Below are positions 12,545-16,668 of a stretch of DNA of 23,048 nucleotides, one piece after another. Source of the stretch: a virus; IMG/VR virus record IMGVR_UViG_3300046413_000570, positions 1 to 23,048 of that record; one strand, given 5' to 3'. The position numbers were made by a program, and so were the translations under genes. Below the pieces are notes generated by a model. The model searched no databases and was not told the DNA's origin. It saw only the letters and a list, made by a program, of their open reading frames with translations. Every line of letters begins with the position of its first letter. The first letter of the stretch is position 1.

Positions 12545-12663
12545 TGGCAAAGAAAGAATCAACTACTAGTATTTTAATTAAAAAATCCAAAAACCATGGT
12601 AAAGCTAAGAAGCATCCTAACAAGAAAGAATGCAAAAAGAATTATAGAGCACAAGGAAGGTAA
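12544..12663 (+). CDS. 39-residue basic protein
   Basis: A very short gene: ATG at 12544 overlaps the stop of the DUF5675 gene (TAATG) and its own TAA at 12661 lies one base before the holin-like start. The protein is extremely basic (13 Lys and 1 Arg among 39 residues) with a His/Lys-rich centre (KSKNHGKAKKHPNKK) and ends YRAQGR. Short proteins with a KHGKAKK-like middle and a [YF]xGQGR-like end recur in crAss-like and related Bacteroidetes phages beside lysis genes, from memory of the family. Coding is supported by the perfect overlap with both neighbours and the family-like ending. It may bind nucleic acid or acidic surfaces; the function is unknown. Confidence 0.68.
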   Translation: MAKKESTTSILIKKSKNHGKAKKHPNKKECKKNYRAQGR

Positions 12664-12664
12664 G

Positions 12665-12901
12665 ATGAAAAAAATATTTAAAAATTACTATAAACCAACT
12701 CCTGCTAAGTTCAGGAAGTTAGGTGACGTGTTATTAGTTGTAGGTACATCTATAACTATGGGTACATTAATGGAATTTGATAAACTTGAAAAAGTATTTA
12801 CTTCTATGGAAATTAAAGTTGCGATGATCATAGCTTTATCTTTTGGAGTAATAGGTAAATTTTTAACAAACTTTTTTGCAGAAACTAAATCAAATGCTTA
12901 A
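12665..12901 (+). CDS. Putative holin
   Basis: A 78-residue membrane protein with a basic N-terminus containing 'YYKPTPAKFRKLGD' (8-21), a first hydrophobic segment (about 20-36) and a second (about 50-71) ending 'GKFLTNFF'. Size, two membrane segments and position next to lysis-type genes fit a small phage holin, which makes the inner-membrane hole that triggers lysis. The 'KFRKLGDxLL ... GKFLTNFF' pattern is that of holin-like proteins in crAss-like and other Bacteroidetes phages, by my recollection. I chose the ATG at 12665 over an upstream in-frame start at 12596, because that extension would overlap the 39-residue basic gene and has unrelated composition. Its end overlaps the next gene by eight bases. 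Confidence 0.74.
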   Translation: MKKIFKNYYKPTPAKFRKLGDVLLVVGTSITMGTLMEFDKLEKVFTSMEIKVAMIIALSFGVIGKFLTNFFAETKSNA

Positions 12902-13475: not shown

Positions 13476-14156
13476 ATGTTTACTTTAAGACACGCAGTTG
13501 CTGACGTCAGAAATATTGCTGACTCAGGTAAAAACAACTACTCATTTAGAATTAGTGATGAACAGATAGCTTTCTGGTTTCATGAAATTAGATCCATGCT
13601 TATATCTCAAGCAGTAACTAAACGTCAAGATATTTCTGATGCTTGGGTGCAAGATATATCATGTTTGGAATTAGAATTAGTAGATGCATCAGATTGTTGT
13701 TTTATAACAACTGATTGTTACATACTTAAAACTAAAGTTCAAATACCTAATACAGTTGAAACTAATGGTGATAACTTAATACTAAGGGTTACTAACCCAG
13801 TAGGTAATATTATATCTAAGTCTAATCCTTTTGAGGTAAAGTATAACAAGTATAATAAGTATACAGGCACTAAACATCAGTGGTATTTTAGAGATGGTTA
13901 TATGTATGTAACTTCAGAATTACTTTTGGAACATATAAATATATTTGCTATCTTTGAAAACCCAGAAGATTTGTCTGGACTTTCTAATTGTGGAGGTTCA
14001 TCATGTTTTAGTTGGGATAGTAAATATCCTTGTTCATTAAAAATGGCTAATGATATTACTAATATTATAATGCAAACTAAGGTACAACCATTCTTACAAA
14101 TGCCACATGATACAAGTAATGATGGTTTATCGCAAAACCAATTAGGTAAAAAATGA
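13476..14156 (+). CDS. Tail-barrel ring protein, crAss-like
   Basis: A 226-residue structural protein of the crAss-like ring type that builds the short tail barrel below the portal. Marks: an N-terminal helix set with 'FRISDEQIAFWFHEIRSMLISQA' and 'QDISDAW' (about 24-56), a strand-rich core beginning 'CLELELVDASDCCFITTDC' and a 'TKVQIPNTVE' strand, and a Trp-Tyr-Phe-rich central segment (HQWYFRDGYMYV). Several Cys (DCC, NCGGSSC, YPC) may form a local site. It starts six bases after the lysis cassette, and its TGA overlaps the next ATG (ATGA). Ring membership is inferred from family pattern and neighbours; which of the stacked rings it forms is not resolved here. Confidence 0.75.
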   Translation: MFTLRHAVADVRNIADSGKNNYSFRISDEQIAFWFHEIRSMLISQAVTKRQDISDAWVQDISCLELELVDASDCCFITTDCYILKTKVQIPNTVETNGDNLILRVTNPVGNIISKSNPFEVKYNKYNKYTGTKHQWYFRDGYMYVTSELLLEHINIFAIFENPEDLSGLSNCGGSSCFSWDSKYPCSLKMANDITNIIMQTKVQPFLQMPHDTSNDGLSQNQLGKK

Positions 14157-14653
14157 TAAATTTTAAAACTGTTAAAAGAACTGAGGGTAAGTTTAAAAAA
14201 GATTTAAGTACAAAAGATTTTTACAAAGATTACTGCAGAGCATCTTTTAACAACAAAAGAATACCTGTCGACTATGCTGTCTACTATAAAGTAGTTAGAG
14301 AATTTAATAAAGCATTAAAGGATAAAATAGTTAAAGAAGCAGTTTCTTTTAAAATGCCTTACAAATTAGGTTACTTAGGAATAATTAAATATGATGTCAA
14401 CTTTGATGCTGATAAGATTAAGAGATGGAAAGTTAATTATGGAGAATCTAGAAAACAAGGAGTGTTAATTTATTATGACCAACCTTTTAGATATAAATGG
14501 AAGTGGGATAAAACTAAATTAAAATTAACTGGTAAAAAATATTATAAGTTTACACCTTGCAGAGATGCATCAAGGTCAATAGCTAAACATATATCTAGTA
14601 CACCAGGATTTGATTATTATGAATTATTAAGCAAAAAACAAAATGATAGTTAG
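14153..14653 (+). CDS. Tail hub/ring-associated structural protein, crAss-like
   Basis: A 166-residue basic protein of a conserved crAss-like family always seen by me among tail-barrel genes. Family marks include 'YYKVVREFNKALKDKIV' followed by 'FKMPYKLGYLGIIKYD' (about 85-100), a 'WKVNYGESRKQG' segment, and an aromatic/Lys stretch 'YKWKWDK' then 'YYKFTPCRDASRSIAKHI'. The role is probably a tail hub or barrel connector; no enzymatic motif is visible. Its ATG overlaps the previous stop. The last residues (KKQNDS, ending in TAG) appear to have been altered by insertion of the homing endonuclease gene that begins inside them: the endonuclease end encodes a similar HNDNKI followed by TAA. Confidence 0.72.
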   Translation: MINFKTVKRTEGKFKKDLSTKDFYKDYCRASFNNKRIPVDYAVYYKVVREFNKALKDKIVKEAVSFKMPYKLGYLGIIKYDVNFDADKIKRWKVNYGESRKQGVLIYYDQPFRYKWKWDKTKLKLTGKKYYKFTPCRDASRSIAKHISSTPGFDYYELLSKKQNDS

Positions 14654-15357
14654 GTTAAATTATTTTAATTATATTTATTTAGATCCTAGAAAACCAGGTG
14701 TTTTTATTTATAAAGATGTTCCTTTTATTTTTAAACATGAACCTTTTTATATTGGTAAAGCTTCTTCTACTAAAAGAATGAAATCACATATTACAAGTTC
14801 TTTAAACCCAAAATATGCTAGTGGTAAATTTAAATGTTCTTTAATAAAATCTATTTTAAAATCTAATTTAAAACCTATTGTTTATTCTTTAAATAAAAAT
14901 ATTTCAGAATTTGAAGCGTTAGAAAATGAAAAATTTTTAATTTCAAAAATAGGAAGAAGAGATTTAAAAAAAGGACCACTTACAAATTTAAAAGATTCTG
15001 ATACAGGTAGTATTAATTTTATTATGCCTGAAGAAACTAAACAAAAATTAAGAATTAAAAATTTAGGTAAAACTCTTTCTGAAGAACATAAAAAGAAAAT
15101 AGGATTAGCAAATAAAGGTTATATTAGTGAAGTTACAAAAGAAGCTAGAAAAAATAAAATAAAATTAGAAGGAAATTGGCTTAATAAAAAAGTCTTACAA
15201 TTAAATTTAAATAACGAGATTATTAAAGAATTTATTTCAATTAAAGAAGCTTGTGAATATTTAAAATTAGGAAGAGCACGTATAAAAAATAGATGTGAAT
15301 TACACGATTTAAAAATTATAAACAATACTTATAAATTAATATTTAAACATAATGATA
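14636..15357 (+). repeat. Imperfect 13-bp direct repeats flanking the first homing endonuclease gene
   Basis: AAACAAAATGATA (14636-14648) and AAACATAATGATA (15345-15357) differ at one base. Each contains an ATG used as a start codon: the first starts the endonuclease, the second starts the downstream ring gene. Read as an insertion footprint, the repeats restore the junction between the two structural genes. Confidence 0.7.
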
Positions 15358-15368
15358 ACAAAATTTAA
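14643..15368 (+). CDS. GIY-YIG homing endonuclease with NUMOD DNA-binding motifs
   Basis: A 241-residue free-standing homing endonuclease, a mobile gene that cuts DNA of alleles lacking it and is copied in by repair. The N-terminal catalytic domain (about 5-125) is a divergent GIY-YIG: 'YIY' at 10-12, 'FYIGKA' at 35-40, a conserved Arg (45), a Glu-rich helix (EALENEKFLI, 91-100) and an IGRRDLKKGPL segment. It is followed by NUMOD3-type helices (about 128-175, including SEEHKKKIGLANKG) and a NUMOD1-like helix-turn-helix (about 183-232) for target DNA binding. It overlaps the end of the upstream hub gene by 11 bases and the downstream ring gene by 17 bases. Codon use is more A/T-rich than in the flanking structural genes, supporting acquisition. 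Confidence 0.88.
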   Translation: MIVRLNYFNYIYLDPRKPGVFIYKDVPFIFKHEPFYIGKASSTKRMKSHITSSLNPKYASGKFKCSLIKSILKSNLKPIVYSLNKNISEFEALENEKFLISKIGRRDLKKGPLTNLKDSDTGSINFIMPEETKQKLRIKNLGKTLSEEHKKKIGLANKGYISEVTKEARKNKIKLEGNWLNKKVLQLNLNNEIIKEFISIKEACEYLKLGRARIKNRCELHDLKIINNTYKLIFKHNDNKI

Positions 15369-16053
15369 ATCATTTAAAAGCATAATTGCTGGATTATATC
15401 GTGACTTAGGTATTAATACAGAAATTAACGAACAAGAAATAGGGGAGTGGATTGCTGAAGCTTTAAACCTTATAGGTTCTTATGCTCAGTTAGAAGAAGT
15501 ATCTTCTATCATTACTGTAGATAATCATAGAGTAATGTTACCTTGTGGTTTCTTATATCCTAAAGACATTACACATAATGGTAGACCTTTATCTTGGTCA
15601 ACTAAATCTGCTGCTAACAATTATCAATGTGAAGATTGTAATAAGATTCCAACATGTTGTACAGATCATAATTTTTATATATCAGATGGATATATTAATA
15701 CATCATTACCTAAAGGTGATTTATGTATAGTATATTTAAGTATACCTGTAGATGAAGAAGGTTATCCTTTAGTTCCAGACAATGTATATTTTGACAAAGC
15801 TTTAAAAGCTTATTGTACTTACATGTTAGATAGAATACAATTTAGAAGAGGATTAATTCCTGATAAGGTTTATCAAGAATCTAAAGTAGATTGGTTATTC
15901 TATGTTAACAGTGCTAGAGGTTCAGCTAACATGCCTGATTCTGCACAGATGGATCGTATAATGAAAGTTTGGGTAAGATTAATTCCAAAACCTCATGAAT
16001 TTAATAATAATTTTAGAAATCTTGAAAATCATGAAAGAAGAAATTTAAGATAA
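15352..16053 (+). CDS. Tail-barrel ring protein, crAss-like (second)
   Basis: A 233-residue protein of a second crAss-like ring family. Marks in order: 'NEQEIGEWIAEALNLIGSY' (about 26-44), a strand region 'IITVDNHRVMLPCG' (53-66), the 'YISDGYINTSLPKGDLCIVYLSIPVDEEGYPLVPD' block (108-142, a hallmark of the family), a helix with 'ALKAYCTYMLDRIQF', and 'NMPDSAQMDRIMKVWVRLIP' near the end. It should form a ring of the tail barrel next to the muzzle. Cys-rich CEDCNKIPTCC (about 93-103) could bind metal. It is flanked on both sides by homing endonuclease genes, yet its ends look intact: the start overlaps the upstream endonuclease and its TAA overlaps the ATG of the downstream one. Confidence 0.8.
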   Translation: MITKFKSFKSIIAGLYRDLGINTEINEQEIGEWIAEALNLIGSYAQLEEVSSIITVDNHRVMLPCGFLYPKDITHNGRPLSWSTKSAANNYQCEDCNKIPTCCTDHNFYISDGYINTSLPKGDLCIVYLSIPVDEEGYPLVPDNVYFDKALKAYCTYMLDRIQFRRGLIPDKVYQESKVDWLFYVNSARGSANMPDSAQMDRIMKVWVRLIPKPHEFNNNFRNLENHERRNLR

Positions 16054-16668
16054 TGGGATATTCAAAAAATAATATAATAGGTATTTATTCTATTACAAAT
16101 ATAATAAATAATAAAAAATATATTGGAAAATCAATATCTGTTAAAGAAAGATTTAATAGTCATTTAAAAAAATTAGAATATAACAAACATCATAGTTTTC
16201 ACTTACAAAGATCTTATAATAAATATGGAAAAGATGTTTTTAAATTTGAAATACTTGCAACATGCCCTGAAGAATATTTAGCAAAATTAGAATGTAAATT
16301 TATAAAAATATTTAAAAGTGATACTCGTAAAAATGGTTATAATATAATTAATAGATTTAATAGTACATCACTTAAGACAAGATTAAAATTAAGTGAAACT
16401 TTAAAAAAATCAAGTAAAGTAAAACAAGCTAAAATTGATATGTGGAAAACAAGAACTAGAAGAAATATAAATCAATATACAATAGATGGTAATTTTATAA
16501 AAACTTGGGAAAGTGTACCTTTAGCAGCAAAAGAATTAAATATAAATTCTAGTTGTATAAATAAAATTTGTAGTCAAAAATATAATTTAAAATCAGTAAA
16601 AGGATTTATGTTTAGATATTATGATAATAATACTTGTAATATTTCAAAATATATAAAAAAAAGATAAT
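16047..16668 (+). repeat. 8-bp direct repeats flanking the second homing endonuclease gene
   Basis: AAGATAAT occurs at 16047-16054 (end of the ring gene, containing AGA TAA) and at 16661-16668 (end of the endonuclease gene, again AGA TAA, just before the muzzle ATG). Chance identity is possible in such AT-rich DNA, but the repeat spans equivalent codons at both gene ends, as for the first endonuclease. Confidence 0.55.
16053..16667 (+). CDS. GIY-YIG homing endonuclease (second, canonical)
   Basis: A 204-residue free-standing homing endonuclease. The catalytic domain (about 8-100) has a canonical GIYSITN (10-16) and KKYIGKS (21-27), catalytic Arg33, H37, and Glu80 in KLECKFI, followed by the NGYNIIN segment. 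A degenerate NUMOD3-like helix (about 107-121) leads to a clear NUMOD1 module (about 138-189: 'INQYTIDGNFIKTWESVPLAAKEL' ending GFMFRYY), which binds target DNA. It differs strongly from the other GIY-YIG gene 700 bases upstream, so the two are independent arrivals rather than a recent duplication. Its ATG overlaps the ring gene stop (TAATG), and the muzzle ATG starts one base after its stop. The DNA is strikingly A-rich. Confidence 0.92.
   Translation: MGYSKNNIIGIYSITNIINNKKYIGKSISVKERFNSHLKKLEYNKHHSFHLQRSYNKYGKDVFKFEILATCPEEYLAKLECKFIKIFKSDTRKNGYNIINRFNSTSLKTRLKLSETLKKSSKVKQAKIDMWKTRTRRNINQYTIDGNFIKTWESVPLAAKELNINSSCINKICSQKYNLKSVKGFMFRYYDNNTCNISKYIKKR

Follow-up and report, generated by a model that had tools for sequence, protein, structure and literature searches.

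A homing endonuclease gene at a crAss-like phage gene junction appears to use the downstream gene's start and to carry a replacement

Introduction

Phage genes are packed together with overlapping ends, which raises the question of how endonuclease genes without an intron enter essential operons non-lethally. The locus described here allows empty and filled alleles to be compared base by base, with one copy of a gene junction serving the endonuclease and the other serving the downstream gene. The window, that is the whole stretch of DNA analysed, is a virus record of 23,048 bases in which crAss-like structural genes are present. It contains an endonuclease gene (HEG1) between an upstream gene labelled 'hub' and the gene for ring protein 1 (ring-1). 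An earlier note on this DNA proposed that 13-base repeats around HEG1 are the footprint of its insertion, that the hub gene lost its original end in the process, and that the endonuclease arrived with, or evolved, a 3' end copying the target.

Results

The endonuclease gene and its neighbours

The features of the locus are listed in Table 1. Several elements of the earlier description hold: the repeats differ by a single base and each contains an ATG, the endonuclease gene overlaps both neighbours at the places given (by 11 nt the upstream ORF 14153-14653 and by 17 nt the downstream ORF 15352-16053), and the downstream gene is indeed a ring gene by its CrAss_Ring_1 match. The name 'hub', used here as a label, reflects gene position and found no backing in the profile searches, where the product had no Pfam match and phrog_12177, of unknown function, as its sole match.

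Table 1. Features of the HEG1 locus; positions are those of the window
Feature	Position (strand)	Length	Remarks
CrAss_Ring_2 gene	13476-14156		Profile match
Upstream gene ('hub')	14153..14653 (+)	166 aa	Complete; ends KKQNDS-stop like HEG-free L006
Left repeat copy, AAACAAAATGATA	14636..14648 (+)		Ancestral hub/ring-1 junction; bases shared with empty allele L006
ATGATAGTTAG	14643..14653 (+)		Original ring-1 start, now HEG1 start; overlaps hub stop
HEG1	14643..15368 (+)	241 aa	Predicted free-standing LEM-3-like GIY-YIG homing endonuclease
Right repeat copy, AAACATAATGATA	15345..15357 (+)		Replacement ring-1 start and 7 preceding bases
Overlap of HEG1 3' end and replacement ring-1 start	15352..15368 (+)	17 nt	
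Foreign tract, ring-1 5' end (nt 1-120)	15352..15471 (+)		Read as co-conversion; right edge approximate
Ring protein 1 gene (CrAss_Ring_1)	15352..16053 (+)		3.5e-50
Second mosaic tract, ring-1 3' end adjoining HEG2	15912..16053 (+)		Last 42 nt L007/L020-like (98%)
HEG2	16053..16667 (+)		Second GIY-YIG endonuclease; brackets ring-1 together with HEG1

The HEG1 product matches PF22945 (LEM-3_GIY-YIG) at 44.6 bits against a cut-off of 27 (2e-11), as well as NUMOD1 and NUMOD3, each below its own cut-off. Conserved motifs of the homing family are present, and identity to an endonuclease of Bacillus phage Mater is 35% over the domain, with homology from residue 6 onward. Neither an intron nor an intein surrounds the gene, and hub and ring-1 are both complete. 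On these features HEG1 is predicted to be a free-standing GIY-YIG homing endonuclease. Searches for a donor found none: viral contigs yielded just two distant partial matches as candidate HEG1-carrying relatives, and matches among phages reached at most 37% identity, in unrelated phages. In Mater, the homologue (L127:592-1287) and the RNase H gene that follows it overlap by 17 nt, the same size as the HEG1/ring-1 overlap, and a homologue in BcepSaruman (L128:421-1317) overlaps its upstream gene by 11 nt, the same size as the hub/HEG1 overlap. The window also contains a 64-nt direct repeat, 72% identical, between the hub gene (14434-14497) and the start of HEG1 (14672-14735); at the protein level the hub stretch YGESRKQGVLIYYDQPFRYK and the GIY-YIG stretch YLDPRKPGVFIYKDVPFIFK share 11 of 20 residues (E=7e-4 in a two-sequence comparison). 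This likeness may be due to chance, as each stretch is conserved within its own family.

The empty site and the older copy of the junction

Relatives were gathered by ring-1 and hub searches, with ring-1 protein identities of 37-88%; a ring-1 search of bacterial and archaeal genomes returned no relative. The comparison rests on the contig sequences, all of them metagenomic. HEG1 is absent from the hub/ring-1 junction in all 20 relatives in which that junction could be read, several of them near-duplicates of one another, a presence/absence polymorphism of the kind that marks homing endonuclease genes. In the closest of these, L006 (on the same contig as L013), the hub gene is 95% identical in DNA up to the stop codon and ends SKKQNDS-stop, ring-1 opens with ATGATAGTTAGAAACAAATC, and the two genes overlap by 11 nt (ATGATAGTTAG), as hub and HEG1 do in the window. 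The window follows L006 through the hub stop codon (14653), bar scattered substitutions, and then diverges into the endonuclease.

Because L006 has an identical hub end and ring start without HEG1, the upstream repeat represents the ancestral junction. The alignment shows, at the level of sequence, that the hub gene lost nothing and that the HEG1 start codon is the original start codon of ring-1; the first four codons of the endonuclease gene (MIVR) are the original first codons of ring-1. Among 478 ORF starts of the clade, the best match to the HEG1 start was the ring start of L006 (P=0.002), and no second in-frame start was found upstream of the HEG1 catalytic domain. The copy at the 3' end of HEG1 is, on this comparison, the newcomer. 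As the earlier note had it, the junction does occur twice around the endonuclease, its 3' copy supplying a ring start that overlaps the HEG1 stop; the copy taken there as old is the wrong one, judging from L006. The note had regarded endonuclease-free relatives with an NDS-ending hub and a junction lacking ATGATAACAAGATTTAAATC-like sequence as evidence against its model. L006 is such an NDS-ending relative and speaks against it, and native ATGATAACAAGATTTAAATC-like ring starts, found in L018 and L019, do not.

A replacement start and an adjoining foreign tract

The ring-1 start of the window, ATGATAACAAAATTTAAATC, resembles the native starts of L018 and L019 (ATGATAACAAGATTTAAATC). The 3' copy is thus a genuine ring start, belonging to a different lineage, and was not created by the endonuclease from nothing. 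Beyond the first codons, the 5' end of ring-1 resembles the L022/L025 group. At positions where L006 and L025 differ, the ratio of L006-like to L025-like bases in the window is 80:14 in the hub gene, 3:14 in ring-1 nt 1-60, 6:7 in nt 61-120 and 72:12 in nt 121-560. Mismatches to L006 number 35 in the first 120 nt of ring-1 and 35 in the following 480 nt, a density ratio of 4.0 (Fisher 1.4e-9), which is the highest among 45 genome pairs, the next being 2.35. Of the first 40 codons 24 are changed, 16 of them synonymously. As the changes are mostly synonymous and match other lineages, they look more like an imported allele than a decayed start. Taken together, the base patterns show the second ring-1 start and the next ~60-120 nt to be of the type of other lineages, and the hub gene and the middle of ring-1 to be L006-like.

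The foreign stretch (ring-1 nt 1-120) adjoins the right side of HEG1, with none seen on the left, and looks like a short co-conversion tract of the kind that homing leaves. Mosaicism is general in the clade and extends over the full length of the window, and the tract could accordingly have other causes. The last 42 nt of ring-1 are 98% identical to L020 (on the contig of L007) and 69% identical to L006; the 3' end of the gene (15912-16053) represents a third lineage, and L007/L020 themselves lack HEG2. The HEG2 site is empty in most relatives and filled in L002. An RNA hairpin is known for mobE; around the new ring start no unusual folding was detected (z -0.68).

The 13-base repeat

The repeat alone is unremarkable, because a position-free search for an equally good repeat gives P values that are not small in this AT-rich DNA (P=0.10 when random windows are the background, 0.22 when other gene starts are). 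When the two copies are registered by start codon, a match at 12 of 13 bases is found in no more than 0.3% of ORF-start pairs. ATGATA is the native ring-1 start in most relatives, and as both copies are ring-1 starts, six of the 13 bases are thereby accounted for. The other seven match at six positions, a weak signal given that 29 of 525 ORF starts match AAACAAA equally well. A permissive local-alignment test for duplication proved uninformative, as overlaps in the AT-rich null averaged about 30-100 bases. It is the empty allele and the mosaic pattern that carry the argument; the repeat does not.

Other endonuclease insertions in the clade

Across 13 related contigs and the window, a survey took in 15 endonuclease insertions, HEG2 accounting for two of these because it occurs in two genomes; for most insertions a relative provided the empty allele. 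The choice of sites and empty alleles was made by eye from alignments, and the P values of the survey are to be read as indicative. Ten endonuclease domains were confirmed by profile, with two more (one below the cut-off), and three were assigned by eye from motifs (the L006 gene at G006:7673-8347, G004:84715 and G004:80457). Taken jointly, the left and right junctions of the 15 insertions are more alike than expected by chance (Fisher about 1e-5 against random windows, about 0.0075 against gene starts), whereas this likeness is absent from eleven ordinary gene indels used as a control (0.085 and 0.59, respectively).

Takeover of the downstream start was seen at four of ten gene-start insertions (joint P = 0.001 over the ten sites), namely HEG1 and three others. 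At G013:31712 the endonuclease begins MNRLLEKK, the empty-allele gene MNRLLDKY and the new start MNNLLNNY; the corresponding sequences are MEESKWQN, MEGKWQKV and MKTKWQKV, with a small gap, at G001:25868, and MKEQINTL, MIEQISVD and MEQLNIDL at G004:13782. No takeover occurred at G004:84715, G013:28120 and G004:80457, where the insertion point has no gene start. About 37-39 bases are shared by both sides at G004:20705, and the endonuclease at G013:16745 ends NKPKTPKK-stop where the upstream gene of the empty allele ends NKPKPTK-stop (P=0.006).

Two side observations concern insertions in relatives. L006 has an endonuclease-like gene of its own (L006:1340-2014; G006:7673-8347), with no Pfam match, ahead of a small membrane-protein-like gene whose first ~20 bases appear on either side of it; the window counterpart of the latter gene (near 12596-12901) is HEG-free. 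In L095 (3104-4167; G002) and L114 (3900-4794; G013), different endonuclease-like ORFs have entered one gene region at points separated by ~50 bases. The joints are clean (gap -1), which is how intron-like insertions would look, but Rfam showed no intron at gathering cut-offs.

Discussion

We posit, with a probability of about 0.78, that HEG1 entered exactly at the hub/ring-1 junction, took the ring start as its own, carries a replacement at its 3' end, and brought co-converted DNA with it on the right. Its arrival would have been through double-strand-break repair, with a HEG1-bearing phage as the donor and co-conversion of the right flank. Because co-conversion is on the right, the cut site probably lies within the first ~100 nt of ring-1 in HEG-free phages. 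Ribosomes finishing the hub gene would restart on HEG1, and those finishing HEG1 would restart on ring-1, which is complete because the second ring start overlaps the HEG1 stop. The earliest step was most likely an illegitimate insertion that duplicated the junction, after which selection would have kept both junction copies; it is such insertions that would survive selection, because they break neither neighbour. Fill-in of a staggered cut was rejected as the source of the first duplication, because GIY-YIG enzymes leave 2-nt 3' ends (PMC2988022), too short for 13-39 bases.

We consider it unlikely that ordinary mosaic recombination, homologous or illegitimate, swapped in a block of HEG1 and the beginning of ring-1, without involvement of endonuclease activity, the repeat then being two conserved ring starts. 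The mosaicism of the clade throughout the window and the weakness of the repeat outside the start-codon register would fit such an origin, but each end of ring-1 has a mosaic tract that abuts an endonuclease gene, HEG1 belongs to a homing family and has its conserved motifs, and matched junctions accompany endonuclease insertions and not other gene indels. A still smaller chance attaches to the new ring start having evolved in place, with HEG1 first destroying or displacing the old one and an ATG and overlap then arising anew by mutation of the HEG1 3' end. Among relatives, ring-1 varies most in its first codons, as such a history would have it; the divergence, however, reaches ~100 nt past the start, is mainly synonymous and matches alleles of other lineages.

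The loss of an original hub end reading KQNDNKI-stop, now carried by the 3' terminus of the endonuclease, also appears very improbable. The HEG1 terminus K-H-N-D-N-K-I shares its frame register with K-Q-N-D-S of the hub, its match to the hub end of L006 has P=0.0099 (shared ring start included), and the L140 hub ends REDDK-stop across ATGATAA. Yet the HEG-free L006 has the same NDS-stop end and the same 11-nt overlap, and the window hub is 95% identical to it up to the stop. L006 refutes such a loss for the window lineage, unless it is itself a HEG1-loss allele that retained an altered end. The last codons, H-N-D-N-K-I, could instead be the hub end of the donor (compare the L140 hub, with REDDK-stop over ATGATAAATAA). 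We give almost no credence to HEG1 lying within an intron or another element that is spliced from RNA or bypassed by the ribosome. Deleting one repeat plus the ORF does yield a clean hub/ring junction, but the window has no Rfam family match, the ORF fills the insert and leaves no space for a ribozyme, and both neighbours are complete without splicing.

Returning to the takeover of the ring start by HEG1, we tentatively suggest, as a possibility we would not yet favour, that free-standing endonucleases of this clade spread as start-swap cassettes, which take the downstream start together with the coupling that ties it to the gene upstream, supply a substitute start at their 3' end, and so enter packed operons harmlessly. 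If true, this would be a general intron-free route to neutral insertion. Recurrence at several sites within one clade makes the idea testable across phage genomes. The locus also serves as a caution that a gene lying behind an endonuclease may have a foreign N-terminus.

Among known systems, the GIY-YIG seg and HNH mob genes of T4-like phages are likewise intron-less, lie between conserved genes and are found in some relatives but not in others, with co-converted flanks; homing in T4 co-converts flanks, and five of 12 free-standing endonucleases of T4-like phages overlap the upstream ORF, for which coupling has been proposed, as in the UAAUGA of mobE (PMC2988022). Unlike these, HEG1 uses the start of the downstream gene and has a replacement start at its own 3' end, an arrangement that the available portion of that paper does not describe (PMC2988022). 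Its LEM-3-like catalytic domain further sets it apart from seg and mob. As with Aeh1 mobE in nrdA and T4 mobA in gene 60, a free-standing endonuclease has entered an essential operon, and what is encoded downstream has to have a start of its own, but there the target protein is split in two, whereas HEG1 splits neither neighbour (PMC2988022). The locus also resembles HEG-islands (Barth et al. 2023; PMC10448857) in that the essential structural gene ring-1 lies between two endonuclease genes, HEG1 and HEG2, at recombination boundaries, each end of ring-1 having a mosaic tract. The L006-like middle of ring-1 suggests that the gene has not moved as one block here, and HEG-island work, in the portion available, concerns neighbourhoods and exchange, with no description of a start being taken over or a junction duplicated (PMC10448857).

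A literature search that covered few subscription papers turned up no phage element described as taking over a start and carrying a replacement for it. A carried replacement gene end is already known from fungal mitochondria, so that it is the phage gene-start version for which we found no description. Endonuclease ORFs in fungal mitochondria (Allomyces atp6; Glomus atp6, atp9, cox2 and nad3) bring a foreign C-terminal end of their target (PMC3630166). As there, a foreign part of the target arrives, the target stays whole and the native copy persists alongside as a diverged duplicate; the target end is present twice at HEG1, with the native, L006-identical start on the left and the foreign start on the right. 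Whereas the fungal ORFs supply a C-terminal end for the upstream gene, HEG1 brings a foreign 5' end for the downstream gene, reuses the native start, and has a duplicate of just tens of bases, drawn mainly from the start of the downstream gene and not from the C-terminal end of the upstream one (PMC3630166). HEG1 thus works like the fungal mORF type without being a member of it.
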